Below, piece after piece: positions 3,583 to 12,331 of a stretch of DNA of 41,296 nucleotides; the first letter of the stretch is position 1, and each line of letters starts with the position of its first letter. A program made the translations under genes and the position numbers. Location: positions 1 to 41,296 of the forward strand of contig CAIQDA010000306.1 of assembly GCA_903870415.1 (NCBI GenBank), written 5' to 3'. This DNA is from an uncultured delta proteobacterium. Lineage in GTDB: Bacteria; Myxococcota_A; Polyangia; Polyangiales; Polyangiaceae. The notes beneath the pieces were generated by a model. The model ran no database searches, was not told where the DNA came from, and saw only the letters and a program-made list of their open reading frames with translations.

Positions 3583-4788
3583 CTAAGCGTTAGACGATGC
3601 CCATCGTTGAAGCAGCGAGTCAACGTTTTCACTGTTTTGCACATCGACGACGATGGGGTCATCGTCGCGGGGAACGATCGTGAGCCGCCCGCGTCCGCTC
3701 AGCGCGCCGACGAGGCGAAGAGGCGCTTGATCGAGCAGCAGCGCGAGGCCCGCGAGTCCGACGCCGACCGAGAAGAACGACGCGACGTGAAGGCGAGCGC
3801 CGACGACGGCGAAGAAGGTTCCTGCGAAGGTTCCTGCGGCGATGAGGGCGACAAACATGCCGCCAACGAGGCCCGTGCGTTTGCCTGACCAGTCGATGCG
3901 GCCGATCGAATCGGGAGCAAGCGTGACCGTGTGGCTCGAGGTGGGGCGGCCACCCATGGACTCACCCCGCGTGATGAGAATTCGCCCGCTTCGCCATTCG
4001 ACACGTGCGTGACGGCGACGCCCGAGCGCCAAGTGCTCAAAGGCCTGCCATGCGCTGCGCAGGATGGTGAGCCCCGTGACGACGAGGAGCACGCGCGCGA
4101 AACCGCCGGGTGCTGCGGGGGCCCACGTGCCTTCGACGATGACCGCGGCTTGATGGGCCTCGCCAAGCGCGAGAATGCTGCGAAGCGCCGGGTCGCGTAC
4201 CGCCGCACCGAGCTTGACGACACCCTCGATGGCGACAGGATGCGCCGAGCGAATCAACGCTGCAGCGCCCACGAGAAGCTCCGCACGCACCGCTGCCGGG
4301 TCCGCGCGCTCGACGAGGATTCGAAGGCGAGCCACGACCGCGGCCCACATCGGGGCGGCGTCCGCGGCGAGTGCCGCGTCGATGAGTCCGGTTGCATCCC
4401 ACGGTGTGTCGCGCGCAAGCAGGAGCATCTCGCGCGCGAGGTCGTCGAGGTGCGTTGGGCCGAGCGATTCTGCTTGTCCCGCAACAGCAAGCGCGGCGAG
4501 TGCGCGAGCGAGCGCATGCTCGTGGTCCGAGCTCGGGCCGCGCTGAAGCACCGACCTCACGCGACGCACCAGCATCGACGCAGGTTCGGGAAGCGACACA
4601 TCTTCCGATTCACTAAAGCGCCGCCGCAACGCGCGAAGCGCCTCCGATGCTATCCACGCCGCCGAAGTGTCCGCGCGCAACGACGCCAAAAGGCGCGCGT
4701 CATCGCCCTTGGCGTCCACCGCGACCTCGCGAAGGGACTCCTCGGCGTCGATGAACGACGGAGACGATTCGGCGGCGGATCGGCTCAC
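3583..4788 (-). CDS. Membrane protein of unknown function
   Basis: The protein has 401 residues and starts at GTG, which overlaps the stop of the giant lipoprotein gene by four bases (GTGA, 4785-4788). The two are therefore probably translated in tandem. Residues 1-220 are soluble, Ala-rich and helical, and may form a HEAT/TPR-like solenoid. A hydrophobic segment follows (A-R-V-L-L-V-V-T-G-L-T-I). Next is a short polar domain with a basic W-R-S-G-R-I-L-I-T-R-G strand, then two long membrane spans near residues 305-360. The C-terminal tail is again polar and ends in a predicted helix. No catalytic motif was seen and I do not recognise a family. The context suggests a role at the envelope with the preceding lipoprotein, but that is inference. 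Confidence 0.75.
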   Translation of the reverse strand: MSRSAAESSPSFIDAEESLREVAVDAKGDDARLLASLRADTSAAWIASEALRALRRRFSESEDVSLPEPASMLVRRVRSVLQRGPSSDHEHALARALAALAVAGQAESLGPTHLDDLAREMLLLARDTPWDATGLIDAALAADAAPMWAAVVARLRILVERADPAAVRAELLVGAAALIRSAHPVAIEGVVKLGAAVRDPALRSILALGEAHQAAVIVEGTWAPAAPGGFARVLLVVTGLTILRSAWQAFEHLALGRRRHARVEWRSGRILITRGESMGGRPTSSHTVTLAPDSIGRIDWSGKRTGLVGGMFVALIAAGTFAGTFFAVVGARLHVASFFSVGVGLAGLALLLDQAPLRLVGALSGRGRLTIVPRDDDPIVVDVQNSENVDSLLQRWASSNA

Positions 4789-7700
4789 GGATTCGTGATC
4801 ACCACGTCTCCGACGATGGTGCGTTCGCCGCGGTCCGCACGACGGGTGAAGTGCGCAATTGAGAGGGGGCTGGCGGAAACGATCGAAGGGAAAAAGCCAG
4901 CCAATGATTGGGTGACCGCACTGGACTTGCGGGTCCAGCGATGACCGCCTGCCGCGGCGACGGTGCCGACCGCGGTGCGGAGAGCGCCGGCCGTCGCGTC
5001 TTGGTAGGCGATGGTCAAGGTGCCCGACGCATCGACGACAATCGCCGAGTCGTCGCCGACAATGTGCTGACCGTCGCTCCAGCTCGAGTCGAAGCCGTCG
5101 TCGACGAGTTCCGGGGTGCCGATGGTGCCATCAGGTTTTACGGAAACAATACGAAGGTCTTCCGTTGAACCGTTAACGTAAGATACCCACAAGGTTCCGT
5201 CTTCCGCAAACGCGAGGTTCGCGCCGATGCCGACGTCGCCGGTGTCGACGGCGGTGCTTGCCGCGCGGCTTCCTGTTTCTCCGTCCGCGATGACCGTGGT
5301 CCACTTGCCGGCGCCGTAGCGGCTGACCAGCAAATTACCGTGCTGCCTGTCGTAGGCGGCGATGGCGAGTGCGCCATTTTTGCCAGACGCGATGCGGGTC
5401 ACAGCGCCCGTGATCGGCGCGTACGAGTCGATCTGATCGGCGGCTAGAATGTTCGCGCACACTGCAGTTGAGCCGCTCTTGACGCACGACTGCGTGGCCG
5501 CGCATGCGGGGGCGCATCCTGTCGCCTTGGTCGCACACTGTCCGCTCGCTTGGCAGACGTCGCCGGCGCGACACCAACCGACGCGGCATGGGGTCGTTTC
5601 GTCGATGACGGCGTCCTCGAACGTCCAATCACTCGCCGCCGCGGGCATGGCCACCTTGGCGCGAGCCACGACGATGGACGAGCGAACCGCACCGCTTGCG
5701 GCAACAGGTTCGACCTGCGCGAACGCGATGACGGGCTTTCCGTCGACGAGAATCATGCGTGCGGATCGGCCCGCTTCGCCGACGTTGACCTCGCGTACAA
5801 CGTAGGTTTTCCACGTGGTGCCATCGAGCGTCGCGAACTTGAGGCGCTTCTTCGTCATGTCGAAGAAGCTCACCATCGGGGTCGAGCCCGAGAACTGAAT
5901 GGACGTGTAGAGGCCGACGTTGGGCCCTGCTTCGTCTTCGCCCGCGCGCCAGCCTCGCGGGTCCGCGTCCGTGCAAACGCCTTCATCGCGTGCTGCAGGA
6001 AGACCGTCGGCCTGGGCCCATGCGAACGACTTTTTCGCCACGTCGTACGTGCCCACGACGAGGTCGCCGTAGTTCGTTGGCCGCGTTCCCATGAGGGCAA
6101 AGTCCGAGTAAGCCGCAGCCCAAATGGTGCCGTCCGGGGCCTTCGCCGTGGACAGGTACGCGCCGAGGACGCCTTGCGGCAGCGGGTCGGAGCATTCGTC
6201 GCTGCAGGTCGATCCGCACTTTGGAGGCGGAGCGGGCGGGATGACCGCTTCTTGGGCCTGTCCGCCGCATCCCGGCGCCGACGCGAGGACGAACGCGCTC
6301 ATCGCGAACACGCCGACGCCTGCGATTGTCGATGCACGTCCGGACCGACGGCGACCGAAGACCGCCGCCAGGGGAAGGAGCGCGAGCCAGCCGAGCGTCG
6401 TCGAGCCCTGTGATGAGCCCGCCACGGCGCAGCCGCAACCAGACGCAGCGCCAGCAAGCGTGGCGTCGGGACGGCCCCGAATGGCCTGTGCCGAGGTGCC
6501 AAGGTTGCCCGCTTCGTCTTGCGCTTCGACGTCGACGGCCTCGCCGGAAGCGACTTTCGCCGCGACCGTTGCGACGTCGGTCCAGTCGGATTGCGTGCCC
6601 TTTGCATCGACCCAGCGTGCCTTGAGCTCGCGCTCGCCGGTCACGACGTCGAAGGTCTTGAGCGCACGTTTGCCGTCTTCGCTGACGATGCGCACCGAAG
6701 GCGCGAGCACGTCGATGAGGACAGGAACCTTGGCCGTGTCGAGCGAAACGAGGGCGTGATTCTTGGCGTCGCGCACCTGAACGTCGAGCGTATGACGGCC
6801 TTGCGCCATGAGGACGGGCGAGGTGATGGTCCGGTGTTTCTCAGACGACCAATCGGACCAAGCGGCTCCGTTGATGGTCACGAGCCACTCGAGTTCGCGT
6901 TGTGCGTCGGGCCCCTCGGCGCCGAGATCGAGCTCGACGGACGGGGCCTTCGTCGCGTCGAACGCCGCAACGGAAAGGGCCTTCGCGTCGACGTGCATCG
7001 CGGAAACGTGCGCGGTGGGACGGAGCACAAGTGGCGCGGTCGTCGTGCCGGCGGGGGTGATGCTCGCGAAGAGCGCGAGGAAGTCGTCCGTGCCCTCGGT
7101 GAGCTTGCGGATGCCGCCGTCGGCGATCTTGATCGACACGCCGAGGCTTGCGGTTGCGCTCGCCAAGTCGATGGGGCTGATGGCGCCTCCGAGCTGGCCG
7201 CCGAGGCTTCCGAGAATGGTCGCGAGGGACTCAGCCACCTTCGTTGGAGACTCGAGGAGCGGGTCGCTGTTGGTGACCACGGCGTTCGCGATGACGAGGT
7301 CGCCGAGCTGTGGCTTCAGTTTTCCGTCGGCGGTGACCTGCAAATTCAGGGGCACCGTGATGTCGGCGGTCAGCGTAAAGACACGCACGAACCGCTCGCT
7401 CGTCATGACGTAGAAGTCGACCGCGAATTGCTCGAGCTTCAGCTTGAGGTGCGGGTCGGTCTTGATGTCGGTGCCGTTGCCAACGGTGATGGTCGCGGGC
7501 TTCTGCGGACGCGTTTGAATCGCGACCGGAGCCGCCTTCTGCTCGATCGAAAAGTACTCAAGGCTGCCGACGAGCACGCTCAGTAGGCCCGTCTGGAGCT
7601 GCGCAACGGTGTCGGTCGTGACCCCGAGGCAAAGAAGCCCCGAGTCGTGCAGCGTGGCGAAGGTGTGATCGAGGTAGCGCTTCGAAATGCCGATGCCCAC

Positions 7701-8960
7701 GTGGGGCTTGTCCGCAGTGGCTGGCCAGTTCGGCGGCTCGTTCGTCTTCAGCGCCGAGGGCACGGGGATGTCGCGCGGAATCGGCATGTGGGCCAATGGG
7801 GCGCAGCGCGTCGCCGGGTTGGGCTTCGTGCCCGAGAGCATCGTGAGCGTCAAACCGTTCGGCGTATGGCCTGCGTACGGCGTGTTGTCCGCGGCTGCGA
7901 GCGCGTCCGGATTCATGTCTCCGCCCGCGGCGAGAATCAAATCGAACTCGGACGACGTGGAAGGTGAGGTTCCCTTCAACGACGCGCCAAGATCAAAGTG
8001 ACCTTCGGTGCCGAGCATGATTCCCAGGCACTGGGTTGCGTCGGCGTCGAGGTAACAGATGCCGTCGCTCGGCTTCTTCGTGCTGCCCGAAGGACACTCG
8101 GGCGTTCGCGTCGCGTCTGCTTTTTCGCAGAAACTTTGCTGAAGCGTTCCCGTGAGCTGGCTCGTGATCTGCCCGATGGCGAGGTTGAAAACGATGCCCT
8201 TCACGATGTCGAGGGCGCTGTTGCAGAAGCCCGAGATCGCTCCGCAATCGCCGCAGATCTTCACGTCATTCTGCGTGATGCCGATGTCGAACACCGCGTG
8301 CTTGAAGTCGACCTTGGTCAACCCGTCGCGTGGCGCGTTCGTCTCGTTGATGAGCGGAAGCGTGATGTTGAGCGGAAACTCGTGGAAATCGGCGACCGGA
8401 TTGATGCCGCTGCACTGAGGTGCGCTTGCGCCGTTGGTGCCCGTGCCGCCAAGGCCAACGCCGAGGTTGAGCGGCAGTCGAAACGCCCCGATGCCCGGAA
8501 GCAGGATGTGGATCGGCAGGTTTTTGAGGCGGATCGGCAGCGTGCCGGTGATGGCGACCGAGTGGGGCGTGACGCCGTCGATGTGAAGCTTCGCGGCTCC
8601 GAGGTTGATGTCGACACGGCAATTGTCCCCGGTGGGGCCGCCGGGGCAAATGGTGATGTCGGTGCCCGATTGCGTGGTCGTCGACTCGGGAATGGGGAAG
8701 TTGGTGACTCCGCCCGTGCCGCCGAGGCCGAGGTTCGACGCGATGCTCGGAAGGCTCGTCGCGAGAAACGTCAGGCCGGGCTTGGTGACGCGAACCGTGA
8801 TCGCGTTATCGATTCGCTGGTCTCGCGGGTAGCTTTCGGCGAGGGGTTTGCTGCATCCCCCCGCGCCGCCACATCCACCGCCGCCGCTGCCGCCGGAGCA
8901 GGCCGCCAGGGCGACCGCGAAGCCGACGGACCATCGATATGCGTTGCGCTTGTCGATCAT
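4785..8960 (-). CDS. Giant two-part lipoprotein with an internal MYXO-CTERM-like signal
   Basis: The protein has 1391 residues. I chose the ATG at 8960 because AAGGA lies eight bases upstream; an in-frame start 21 bases earlier has no such site. The lipobox is A-L-A-A-C (Cys21), followed by a Gly/Cys-rich linker. Residues about 30-640 contain repeated beta-rich segments resembling lipid-binding (BPI-like) folds, a tentative comparison. Residues about 660-830 look Ig/fibronectin-like. At 841-844 lies G-C-G-C, followed by a hydrophobic helix (about 853-869) and R-R-R, the hallmark of a MYXO-CTERM sorting tail. The frame stays open: a second hydrophobic stretch and a lipobox-like A-P-G-C (Cys898) follow. 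The last 490 residues form a Cys-containing, propeller-like region with repeated strands. It reads as two secreted proteins joined in one frame. The gene lies 31 bp after the preceding lipoprotein gene. Confidence 0.85.
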   Translation of the reverse strand: MIDKRNAYRWSVGFAVALAACSGGSGGGGCGGAGGCSKPLAESYPRDQRIDNAITVRVTKPGLTFLATSLPSIASNLGLGGTGGVTNFPIPESTTTQSGTDITICPGGPTGDNCRVDINLGAAKLHIDGVTPHSVAITGTLPIRLKNLPIHILLPGIGAFRLPLNLGVGLGGTGTNGASAPQCSGINPVADFHEFPLNITLPLINETNAPRDGLTKVDFKHAVFDIGITQNDVKICGDCGAISGFCNSALDIVKGIVFNLAIGQITSQLTGTLQQSFCEKADATRTPECPSGSTKKPSDGICYLDADATQCLGIMLGTEGHFDLGASLKGTSPSTSSEFDLILAAGGDMNPDALAAADNTPYAGHTPNGLTLTMLSGTKPNPATRCAPLAHMPIPRDIPVPSALKTNEPPNWPATADKPHVGIGISKRYLDHTFATLHDSGLLCLGVTTDTVAQLQTGLLSVLVGSLEYFSIEQKAAPVAIQTRPQKPATITVGNGTDIKTDPHLKLKLEQFAVDFYVMTSERFVRVFTLTADITVPLNLQVTADGKLKPQLGDLVIANAVVTNSDPLLESPTKVAESLATILGSLGGQLGGAISPIDLASATASLGVSIKIADGGIRKLTEGTDDFLALFASITPAGTTTAPLVLRPTAHVSAMHVDAKALSVAAFDATKAPSVELDLGAEGPDAQRELEWLVTINGAAWSDWSSEKHRTITSPVLMAQGRHTLDVQVRDAKNHALVSLDTAKVPVLIDVLAPSVRIVSEDGKRALKTFDVVTGERELKARWVDAKGTQSDWTDVATVAAKVASGEAVDVEAQDEAGNLGTSAQAIRGRPDATLAGAASGCGCAVAGSSQGSTTLGWLALLPLAAVFGRRRSGRASTIAGVGVFAMSAFVLASAPGCGGQAQEAVIPPAPPPKCGSTCSDECSDPLPQGVLGAYLSTAKAPDGTIWAAAYSDFALMGTRPTNYGDLVVGTYDVAKKSFAWAQADGLPAARDEGVCTDADPRGWRAGEDEAGPNVGLYTSIQFSGSTPMVSFFDMTKKRLKFATLDGTTWKTYVVREVNVGEAGRSARMILVDGKPVIAFAQVEPVAASGAVRSSIVVARAKVAMPAAASDWTFEDAVIDETTPCRVGWCRAGDVCQASGQCATKATGCAPACAATQSCVKSGSTAVCANILAADQIDSYAPITGAVTRIASGKNGALAIAAYDRQHGNLLVSRYGAGKWTTVIADGETGSRAASTAVDTGDVGIGANLAFAEDGTLWVSYVNGSTEDLRIVSVKPDGTIGTPELVDDGFDSSWSDGQHIVGDDSAIVVDASGTLTIAYQDATAGALRTAVGTVAAAGGHRWTRKSSAVTQSLAGFFPSIVSASPLSIAHFTRRADRGERTIVGDVVITNP

Positions 8961-8991
8961 GGTCAAGTTCCTTTTGGGCACGCGGAGGGGC

Positions 8992-10089
8992 TTACTGCGC
9001 CGCCGGTGTGCAGAACGCGTCTGTCGGGTTCGGGTCGATGCTGGTTGCGCTTGCCGCGAACGTGGCGGAGATCCAGAAGCTGTCTCGGCATCCGCCGACG
9101 GAGTTCGTCGTCGAGCAGTAGTCGCCTTGCACGTCGAGCGCGCCGGCGGCCGTCTTGGGGCAGCTCTTGTTGTCCGCGCCCGTCTTGCTCGTGAGCACTG
9201 TGCAGAGGGTTTTGCCGATGTCGACGATGTCGATCTTGTCGGCGTCCTCGAGGCTCACGAACCCTCCGAGCGAAGCGCCCGTGGTCCACTTCGAGCACGA
9301 CGTGTCGTCTTCTTTGCAGCTGAGCGCGCTGTCGAGGCCGCCGATGCGAAACCCGCCGATGCAGTTGCCGCTAGGCGAAACGGTGATGTCGCGCACCGTG
9401 ACGCCGCGAAGCGGGAGGATGATGACGTTGTCGCGCTTGTTCTGCACGAAAATGGGAACGTTGAGGACCGGGACCGTCTCCGTCGCGTAGCGCCCCTGCG
9501 CGTCCTTCGTGAGCTTCACGTCGATGGGGGCTGCGTCGAACCCGTTGAGTTTCGTGCGGACGAAGCAATAGCTACCGTTGCCGGTCACGTCGGCGGGAGC
9601 CGCTCCGCCGGTGATGAGGCGATTGTTCGCCGTGTCAATTTGCATGATCCAGTTGAAGCTGCCGTCGCCGCGCTCGCTGCACGTGGGGTTCGCCAAGTCC
9701 ATGGCCTTGTTCAGGATCGTTCGCTGAACGATGATGTCCTTGAGGCTTGGCGGTGACGCGATATTCAGTCGGCGCACGCGAAGCGCGAGCTTGGTCTTCC
9801 CCGTGTTGTCGACGGTATTGAGGCACTCGTTCGTGTTGCCGCAGCTCGACGCAAGCGTGCATGTTGCACACACTTCGCATTCGCCGCGACTCGCCTCACA
9901 GTCGGCCGCGGGGTATCCGCCAGGCTGCACACTGCACGGCGCGGCTCCGCCGTCGGCTGCCGGAGTCGAGCACCCGGACGCCGTCGAACTCGAACTCGAA
10001 CTGGATGCGCACGCCACGACAGCGACCCCGAAGGCCCCCACGAGAGCCATCACTGCGAACGAAACCCCATGACCAATCGCTTTGCGCAC
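8992..10089 (-). CDS. Cys-rich lipoprotein of unknown function
   Basis: The 365-residue protein starts at GTG, supported by a strong GGAGGA ribosome-binding site four bases upstream. The signal peptide ends in lipobox A-V-V-A-C (Cys27), followed by a Ser-rich linker. The mature part contains many Cys, including a C-x(2)-C-x(2)-C cluster near 72-78, and beta-rich segments. One of these is the V-T-V-R-D-I-T-V-S strand leading to C-I-G-G-F-R-I-G-G. No enzyme motif was seen. Because the giant lipoprotein gene follows after 31 bp and the membrane-protein gene overlaps that one, the three probably form one transcript. The promoter would lie in the 69 bp upstream (10090-10158). The function is unknown; a cell-surface or periplasmic partner of the giant lipoprotein is plausible. 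Confidence 0.8.
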   Translation of the reverse strand: MRKAIGHGVSFAVMALVGAFGVAVVACASSSSSSSTASGCSTPAADGGAAPCSVQPGGYPAADCEASRGECEVCATCTLASSCGNTNECLNTVDNTGKTKLALRVRRLNIASPPSLKDIIVQRTILNKAMDLANPTCSERGDGSFNWIMQIDTANNRLITGGAAPADVTGNGSYCFVRTKLNGFDAAPIDVKLTKDAQGRYATETVPVLNVPIFVQNKRDNVIILPLRGVTVRDITVSPSGNCIGGFRIGGLDSALSCKEDDTSCSKWTTGASLGGFVSLEDADKIDIVDIGKTLCTVLTSKTGADNKSCPKTAAGALDVQGDYCSTTNSVGGCRDSFWISATFAASATSIDPNPTDAFCTPAAQ

Positions 10090-10158
10090 GCGTCCTCCAC
10101 TAACTGTTCAACGTATTCCAGCACACATCCGTGACCAACCCGACCACCATACACAAAC

Positions 10159-11088
10159 TCAGGGCAACGTGGGCAACGGGCCGCCGTAGTTCATCATGGA
10201 TTCGAACGCCCGCAAGCGTTCTCCGAGTGCAGCCCGATCGAGCGTGAGAAGGCGCTCGGGGCCTAGACCCTCGACGCCAAAGCTCGCGACCGTCGATGCG
10301 ATGATCATGGCCTGACGAATTGCAGCGCCGTCGGTGCGACCAAGGCTCGCGAGCACGCCAAGAAGTGCGCCCGCAAAGCTGTCTCCGGCGCCGGTTGGAT
10401 CCCGGAGTTCCTCGAGCGGATACGCGGGGACGAAGAAGACTCCGTCGTCGTCGAAAAGCGCGGCGCCGTGCTCGCCCTTTTTGATGATGACGCGCTTTGG
10501 GCCCATCGCGCGGATGGCTTCGGCGGCCTTGCGCAGCATGCCGTGACCGGTGAGGTCTTTCGCCTCTTCGTCGTTGATGCTGATGACGTCGACTTTGCCG
10601 AGAAGCTCGCGGAGCGTTTTGCGCTCGGTGTGAATCCACAGGTTCATCGTGTCGGCCACCACGAGCTTGGGTCGCTCGACTTGCGCGAGGACGTCGAGCT
10701 GGAGCGCCGGGTGGATGTTGCCGAGAAGCAGGTACGGCGAGGTCTTGTAAGAGACTGGAATTTTTGGGTGAAAGTCCGCAAAGACGTTCAGTGCCGTGTG
10801 GATGGTTTCGCGGCTTCCGAGGTCGGCTGCGTAGCGCCCGTGCCAGCGAAAGGTCTTGCCTGCGGCGCGTTCAACGCCAGCGATGTCGACGCCGCGCGAT
10901 GCGAGCGTTTCGAGCACCGCGGCGGGGAAATCTTCGCCGACGACGCCGACGACGCGCACGGGCGCAAACGATGAAGCCGAAATGGCGGCATACGTCGCGG
11001 CGCCGCCGAGCACGTCGTTGAACGTGCCGTAGGGCATTTCGAGGTCGTCGAAGGCCATCGAGCCGACGATGAGGACGGGTTCTTTCAC
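10159..11088 (-). CDS. PfkB-family carbohydrate/nucleoside kinase
   Basis: The protein has 309 residues. GTG at 11088 is preferred because GGAG lies six bases upstream; a TTG four codons earlier overlaps that site. The ribokinase fold is clear: a substrate-side D-V-L-G-G-A-A-T-Y motif near residue 26, and the C-terminal signature D-P-T-G-A-G-D-S-F-A-G-A, whose last Asp (Asp236) is the catalytic base. N-D-E-E near 172 is also typical. Such enzymes phosphorylate sugars or nucleosides with ATP. The exact substrate cannot be assigned, although the position 18 bp after guanylate kinase makes a nucleoside worth testing. No lid features allow a ribokinase, adenosine kinase or KdgK call. The gene is the last of the RelA/SpoT-like, DUF507, gmk run. 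Confidence 0.88.
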   Translation of the reverse strand: MKEPVLIVGSMAFDDLEMPYGTFNDVLGGAATYAAISASSFAPVRVVGVVGEDFPAAVLETLASRGVDIAGVERAAGKTFRWHGRYAADLGSRETIHTALNVFADFHPKIPVSYKTSPYLLLGNIHPALQLDVLAQVERPKLVVADTMNLWIHTERKTLRELLGKVDVISINDEEAKDLTGHGMLRKAAEAIRAMGPKRVIIKKGEHGAALFDDDGVFFVPAYPLEELRDPTGAGDSFAGALLGVLASLGRTDGAAIRQAMIIASTVASFGVEGLGPERLLTLDRAALGERLRAFESMMNYGGPLPTLP

Positions 11089-11106
11089 GCAGATCTCCAA
11101 AAGGTA

Positions 11107-11796
11107 TTACGCGGAGGTTGGGGCGTCGTCGGGGACGATGACGTCGTGGCGCAAGAGGGACTCGGCGAGTCCGGCACGCCGCGAGCGTCGCGATCGCTCG
11201 GCCACGATGATCGACGAAAGGGTTTCGAACGCGCGCTCGATCTGGTCGTTGACGACGAGGTAGTCGAAGAGCGCGTAGTTCGAGATTTCGCGCTTAGCGC
11301 CTGAAAAACGCCTGGCGATTGCCTCTTCAGACTCGCTCCCGCGGCCGCGCAAACGACGCTCGAGTTCGGCCATGGAGGGCGGCAAGATAAAGATGGGGAC
11401 GACGTCCGGAATGCGCGCGCGAATTTGACGAGCGCCCTGAAAGTCGATGTCGAAGATGATGCCCGCGCACTTGGGGTCTTGCTCCGCGCGGATGATCTCG
11501 GTCAGCGAAGTTCCGTAGTAGTTTCCGTGTACTTCGGCCCACTCAAGGAACGAGCCGCCGCGCACCTTTTCGCGGAAACTTTCGTGGTCCGTGAAGTGGT
11601 AGTGCACCCCGTCAATCTCGTTCGATCGCGGCGCGCGCGTCGTGTGCGAGACGGAAAAACGCAGCTCCGGAAAGCGCTGCTGAATCATCCTCGTCAGCGT
11701 CGTCTTCCCGGCACCCGAAGGCGACGAGAGGATGAGCATGAGGAAGGGCGCGGCTCCCGAGGGAGCTTGCGGCGGAATCGACGTGCCAGCGTTCAT
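11107..11796 (-). CDS. gmk: Guanylate kinase
   Basis: This 229-residue protein converts GMP and ATP to GDP and ADP, an essential step in GTP and dGTP supply. The P-loop S-S-P-S-G-A-G-K-T-T is at 24-33, after an extra N-terminal stretch of about 18 residues. The GMP-binding motif S-H-T-T-R-A-P-R is at 50-57, followed by the expected G-V-H-Y-H-F segment. D-I-D-F-Q-G-A (116-122) matches the conserved D-I-D-x-Q-G block, and R-L-x-x-R-G-S (about 149-154) the lid. I chose the ATG at 11796 because it lies 22 bp after the DUF507 stop; frames open further upstream would run into that gene. The C-terminus carries an extra tail of about 25 residues. The neighbours are a RelA/SpoT-like gene upstream and a PfkB kinase downstream. 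Confidence 0.95.
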   Translation of the reverse strand: MNAGTSIPPQAPSGAAPFLMLILSSPSGAGKTTLTRMIQQRFPELRFSVSHTTRAPRSNEIDGVHYHFTDHESFREKVRGGSFLEWAEVHGNYYGTSLTEIIRAEQDPKCAGIIFDIDFQGARQIRARIPDVVPIFILPPSMAELERRLRGRGSESEEAIARRFSGAKREISNYALFDYLVVNDQIERAFETLSSIIVAERSRRSRRAGLAESLLRHDVIVPDDAPTSA

Positions 11797-11818
11797 CGTG
11801 AGGCTCGCGGGGCGAAAA

Positions 11819-12331
11819 CTAAAGCAGCCCCCGCTTGCGGCGAATGGCCTCACCGATGCGGTTGAACTCCACGTCCCACTGGGGCGTGCCCTCGGTGACA
11901 TGGCGAAGTTGCGTGCGAATCTCCGCGTCGAGCGCTTCGTCGACGTTCACGTGCTTGCGAAAAACGGGCGCGAGCAAGCGGCGCAATTCGCCGTCTTCGA
12001 CGAAGACCTCGTCGATACCGTCGTCTTCAAGGAGCATGGAAACCGTGCGATCGAGCAGGTGATCGATCGTTTCGTCGCCGATGCCAATGCCGTGCTCTTC
12101 GGCGACCAGGCGGCGTACGCGATGCATCTCCGTGCTTGATTTGCCCGTGCGATCGAGCACGACCTTGGCTTCGTCGTACACGGCGCGTTCTTCGGCCAAG
12201 TAGCGCTTGAGTTCCGCCGCGATGGCGATCTCAACGTCCTTTGGACGAGCGGCCTCAACGGCCTTCGCCGCGAGGAGCGCACGAGCACCGTCGGCTGCGA
12301 TTGCATCGACCTTCCCCGGGAAGAGCTTCAT
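11819..12331 (-). CDS. DUF507 family protein
   Basis: The protein has 170 residues and an ATG start. It is highly charged and helical, beginning M-K-L-F-P-G-K and containing the motif E-E-H-G-I-G-I-G-D-E-T-I-D-H-L-L. These are features of the DUF507 family, found next to core genes in Deltaproteobacteria-type genomes. It appears to be two related halves, each with a pattern of E-I/V followed by a helix rich in Leu and Glu, which fits an ancient duplication. There is no signal or membrane segment, so it is likely cytoplasmic. The family's function is unknown. It lies 78 bp after the RelA/SpoT-like gene and 22 bp before gmk, so cotranscription is likely. Confidence 0.85.
   Translation of the reverse strand: MKLFPGKVDAIAADGARALLAAKAVEAARPKDVEIAIAAELKRYLAEERAVYDEAKVVLDRTGKSSTEMHRVRRLVAEEHGIGIGDETIDHLLDRTVSMLLEDDGIDEVFVEDGELRRLLAPVFRKHVNVDEALDAEIRTQLRHVTEGTPQWDVEFNRIGEAIRRKRGLL

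Follow-up and report, generated by a model that had tools for sequence, protein, structure and literature searches.

To our knowledge, polyproteins are rare in bacteria, C-terminal sorting tags are assumed to end the proteins that carry them, and the action of myxosortase has been demonstrated only for tags at the C-terminus whose cytoplasmic tail is short. One gene giving two envelope proteins is fbcH of Bradyrhizobium japonicum, which encodes a cytochrome b/c1 polyprotein parted at an internal signal sequence; it differs from the case presented here in its use of signal peptidase I and in having neither a C-terminal sorting tag nor lipid anchors, and serves us as a lead, not as a test. The closest described system is that of MYXO-CTERM (TIGR03901) and MrtX in Myxococcus xanthus, in which myxosortase cleavage of the C-terminal signal requires the conserved Cys and functions in E. 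coli, and in which proteins left uncleaved still partly reach the surface (PMC11980579). The M. xanthus ORF MXAN_5598 contains an internal MYXO-CTERM, for which the authors proposed N-terminal processing and suggested a gene fusion (PMC11980579). In the literature searched on bacterial lipoprotein polyproteins and internal signals we found no relevant report. An internal MYXO-CTERM is already published with MXAN_5598; what is new here is an ancient, widespread form that has a lipoprotein signal directly behind it. By its published description, MXAN_5598 shares the internal MYXO-CTERM with the protein analyzed here but continues into an outer-membrane beta-barrel and OmpA domains, instead of a lipoprotein-type signal and a propeller; the present arrangement, moreover, recurs in unrelated families.

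The window, a stretch of 41,296 nucleotides, contains an ORF for a putative polyprotein of 1398 amino acids (4785..8981), which lies on the minus strand like all the features of the window described below and starts with GTG at 8981, an alternative ATG at 8960 giving 1391 aa. Residues are counted here from the GTG; the first-pass annotation, which reported a MYXO-CTERM-like tail followed in frame by a second lipoprotein-like signal, counted from the ATG (Met8). Both elements are present where that annotation placed them, and its residues 841-875 and Cys898 agree with our numbering, Cys898 being Cys905. The ORF opens with a lipoprotein signal ending in FAVALAAC (8898..8981), the Cys28 of which is invariant in 19 aligned homologues. 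The internal MYXO-CTERM-like signal (6345..6443) comprises Cys849-x-Cys851 within a G-C-G-C motif (codon of Cys849, 6437-6435), a hydrophobic helix and Arg877-879; these arginines are shared with the second signal (6267..6353) as its n-region, after which another hydrophobic stretch is closed by A-P-G-C, a lipobox-like site at Cys905 (codon 6269-6267). A hydropathy scan places the two hydrophobic stretches at ~861-875 before and ~885-900 after the arginines, and the G+C content by codon position runs continuous across the junction.

The invariant Cys and the hydrophobic helix followed by an Arg cluster are features common to this signal and the M. xanthus MYXO-CTERM; the signal of the window differs in lying in the middle of the protein, with another signal and a folded domain of 494 residues behind it. 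Since more than 500 residues come after it, we have named it an internal MYXO-CTERM-like signal. Its TIGR03901 score is borderline, because the match at residues 847-879 reaches 23.7 bits in a genome search (cut-off 20) and 18.6 bits, under that cut-off, in a whole-protein hmmscan. The remaining three MYXO-CTERM proteins above cut-off in the same genome carry the signal at their C-termini, with a stop 3-4 residues past the Arg cluster, so that the internal signal is an exception in its own genome. The second signal resembles bacterial lipoprotein signals of the Lgt/LspA pathway (type II) in its basic n-region, hydrophobic core and small residue, of the [GA] or broader [GAS] set, before Cys905; it differs from them in being internal rather than N-terminal and in an n-region that would at the same time form the cytoplasmic tail belonging to the sorting signal before it. 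Its Pro at -2 falls outside the PROSITE lipoprotein lipobox pattern PS51257; this pattern is satisfied by 53 of 74 parsed homologous junctions, at least three of those missing it being cysteines mis-picked by the script.

The first-pass annotation had named the absence of a myxosortase homologue as an argument against its reading, and the genome does encode a myxosortase-family protein (L048:1102-1806), with 119.9 bits against Mrt_core (cut-off 100) and 168.9 bits against MrtC, the latter under the equivalog cut-off of 195. LspA (signal peptidase II) and GspD, the secretin of the type II secretion system (T2SS), are also encoded, and the myxosortase-family protease and T2SS secretin form a further likeness to the MYXO-CTERM/MrtX system of M. 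xanthus. We infer, with a probability of roughly 0.7, that myxosortase and signal peptidase II both cleave the polyprotein, a single Arg cluster serving both signals. The polyprotein would pass through the inner membrane in hairpin form: the exported first half would be BPI/CETP-like and lipidated at its N-terminus, the MYXO-CTERM helix would run from outside to inside and leave Arg877-879 in the cytoplasm, and the next hydrophobic stretch would return from inside to outside as an internal lipoprotein signal, taking its basic n-region from that same Arg cluster. At a lipidated Cys849 the first half would be freed by the myxosortase-family protease, and Lgt and LspA would carry out lipidation and cleavage at Cys905. 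The outcome would be two proteins of the surface or periplasm, each with its own anchor and made in equal numbers, with a hairpin of ~50 residues discarded. One polypeptide yielding two anchored proteins is the best fit of the three options that the first-pass annotation had offered. This model is weakened by the Pro at -2 and the borderline TIGR03901 score, and also by a cytoplasmic tail that here runs on into another helix.

The sequence conservation of the junction supports this model. In 79 fused ORFs extracted from relatives, the succession of Cys, helix, Arg cluster, helix and Cys is seen by eye at every junction, and a script recovers the pattern of Cys, hydrophobic, basic, hydrophobic and [GA]-Cys in 78 of them. 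The remainder of these proteins, 104,066 aa in all, contains no instance of the pattern, and shuffling of the junctions produced it in 24 of 1,580 cases; its occurrence far exceeds what chance would give. Among 48 aligned junctions the only invariant columns are Cys19 and Cys75, equivalent to Cys849 and Cys905 of the window, the former being invariant also in 19 full-length homologues. Conservation of at least 90% is reached by the latter Cys of C-x-C, by the Gly at -1 of the lipobox, by one basic position in the Arg cluster and, farther upstream, by an Arg-Gly pair, whereas linker length and the other positions are variable. Both cysteines being invariant, it is the cleavage-site residues that are conserved, and not hydrophobicity alone. 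Most copies have a basic loop between the helices in which acidic residues are scarce or absent. The -3 position is aromatic, Ser or Ala in many Polyangia copies, a point against the model. Beyond the order, 19 loci in further orders and classes, picked for their long frames, also keep the junction, and there the lipobox is often more canonical (e.g. LIGC, LIAC and LFSC).

The main alternative, namely that the protein stays uncut with its hydrophobic stretches forming a permanent hairpin anchor and its cysteines being either remnants or sites of lipidation only, has the hydrophobicity of the junction in its favor, both stretches being hydrophobic enough to span the membrane, but appears unlikely given that the two cysteines are the sole invariant columns and that [GA] almost always precedes the second. 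Natural splits of the gene, which show that the halves can be separate products, also speak against it. Two genera, G039 and G010, have the gene divided precisely at the junction, with stop and start codons that overlap or adjoin: the first gene stops after the Arg cluster and the second opens with its own N-terminal lipoprotein signal. In G039 the first gene ends in WRRRSSRRDARTKAVK followed by the stop, the second having an ATG start with MNARTCLVGALALTLAGVANPGC; in G010 the GTG start of the second gene overlaps the TGA of the first. Paralogues that consist of the first half only, and which terminate just past the Arg cluster (RRRRR-stop or similar), have kept a true C-terminal MYXO-CTERM, again at variance with a permanent anchor. 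Such paralogues were seen at nine loci (L039, L089, L102, L110, L113, L114, L249, L262 and L274), and in the six whose downstream sequence was read no propeller homologue was found directly behind the gene.

Alternatively, only one of the two cuts may occur, either with LspA freeing the propeller and the MYXO-CTERM helix staying in place, or with myxosortase cutting and the second half keeping its anchor. The atypical lipobox of the window, with its Pro at -2, speaks for such partial processing, as does the partial arrival at the surface of uncleaved MYXO-CTERM proteins (PMC11980579); the equal invariance of both cysteines and the presence of genes for both enzymes nevertheless render a single cut improbable. 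Even less credence is due to internal translation initiation, by which the second half would derive from a hidden second gene: although an in-frame ATG, GTG or TTG that keeps at least one basic residue exists in 48 of 78 junctions, a Shine-Dalgarno-like 4-mer lies upstream in only 2 of the 78, and the truly split genes show a clear start overlapping or adjoining the stop.

The single ORF is itself old. Among 39 close relatives it is mostly one uninterrupted frame of ~1400 aa, a homologue being present in 102 of 144 genomes of the order, and the one-ORF form was found in ~100 independent genomes with identity from 74% down to ~30%; the genomes sampled for the order and for the phylum represent a part of their species. 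Named genomes were scanned independently, and among homologues lying whole on their contig this gave 55 fused copies, 3 paralogues with the first half alone and not one split pair; the comparison of relatives that the first-pass annotation had proposed gives one long gene, and the stop codon between the parts that would have spoken against its reading is missing from nearly all relatives. The fused copies include those of Sorangium cellulosum So0157-2 (L265) and So ceGT47 (L267), which are complete chromosomes with an unbroken ORF, and of Polyangium isolates (L226, L261). In a tree of the first halves, built with a quick method and midpoint root, split and first-half-only copies form separate tips or small groups inside fused clades, with nine changes of label (three rows marked as not fused being merely cut by a contig end). 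Because these copies are scattered within fused clades, the one-ORF form is most simply taken as ancestral, and the split and first-half-only forms as derived.

At one locus of the phylum (L161, G237:C58) the two halves lie in overlapping different frames, a frameshift or an assembly problem. The genus of the window has a second, divergent fused copy with ~30% identity (L032 = G000:C266, L033 and L031), in which the junction signal has a single Cys, of the SCAYA type.

When a junction profile was run against 56 genomes of the order, it recovered not only homologues but also unrelated long ORFs in which the tandem junction is uninterrupted. Reading confirmed 21 of the latter, in which 148 to 2003 residues follow the junction. 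Counting that of the window, these tandem ORFs form at least six groups by their first halves and at least eight by their second halves, minimum counts, as the list was a selected one. The 20 phylum loci and the tandem ORFs were picked for long stop-free frames and thus prove that the architecture exists there, not how frequent it is. Examples are VWA/MopE-repeat proteins with an FGE-sulfatase, nidogen-like with MopE and MAM, and GH15-like with alpha-amylase. The last pair consists of two adjacent genes in most genomes, including that of the window (G000:C511), the first gene ending in a MYXO-CTERM and the second beginning with a lipoprotein signal; adjacent or separate genes were seen at L305-L310 and L312, and fused ones in three genomes from three different families (G038, G039 and G030; L214, L298 and L311). 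Because these relatives mostly keep adjacent genes with matching signals, their sequences suggest that fusions may arise by loss of the stop codon between genes whose signals already sit back to back. Sequencing error or a recent loss of a stop codon, the other two options of the first-pass annotation, might be suspected in a draft assembly of 511 contigs, but is ruled out for practical purposes by the unbroken ORF of ~100 relatives, complete chromosomes and Polyangium isolates among them, by its ancestral state on the tree and, as regards error, by an arrangement kept across the phylum and recurring in unrelated genes.

On balance, we favor the view that the protein of the window belongs to an ancient and recurrent class of Myxococcota polyproteins, in which a sorting tag and a lipoprotein signal sit back to back around one cytoplasmic Arg cluster and one message would give two anchored proteins; this would be a general device making the fusion of adjacent surface genes harmless, used independently in at least six families. 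If confirmed, such processing would explain how envelope genes fuse without loss of function, the annotation would have to be corrected in that many myxobacterial 'giants' may each represent two proteins, and the junctions would offer a ready test of myxosortase and signal peptidase II on internal signals. Of note, the VWA/MopE-repeat giants (up to 4218 aa) have VDPFC-type Cys motifs after the tandem junction and many carry a C-terminal FGE-sulfatase-like domain (L044, L196-L199, L201, L203-L206, L208-L210, L212 and L213).

The two halves gave no matches in a PDB search by sequence, nor did the protein in a Pfam search, and their folds are taken from predicted structures. The AlphaFold2 model of the first half (pLDDT 88.8) shows at residues ~57-644 (7050..8813) the two-barrel architecture of the TULIP superfamily, with a Foldseek E value of 3.7e-14 for BPI; VIA-align also places BPI (Z 16.7, rmsd 5.3, 433 residues aligned), CETP (Z 15.1) and LBP (Z 14.2) well above the next rows. 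The difference from these proteins lies in the sequence, with identity of ~11% and no family-level match in Pfam or PDB. The first half is thus predicted to be a putative BPI/CETP-like lipoprotein of lipid-binding type, and the model suggests a possible role in lipid transfer. The bacterial TULIP families previously identified are listed as P47, OrfX2 and YceB only (PMC6791001), beyond which the first half would add a conserved myxobacterial lipoprotein. It is followed by two predicted fibronectin-III-like domains (residues ~648-832; 6486..7040). The second half (residues 905-1398; 4788..6269) is modeled by AlphaFold2 as a seven-bladed beta-propeller (pLDDT 94.3) closest in VIA-align to PLL-type lectin propellers (Z 28.8, rmsd 2.9, 300 aligned), a predicted fold that does not fix its function. 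That a BPI/CETP-like protein and a propeller stay linked throughout the phylum suggests a so far unstudied function in the envelope.

The gene downstream of the polyprotein is not conserved among 75 loci. Many relatives share with the window (8992-11901) the upstream order of guanylate kinase, PfkB-type kinase, lipoprotein and polyprotein, names that were assigned by eye from the sequence, and the upstream neighbors are kept in 22, 45 and 40 of the 75 loci, respectively.
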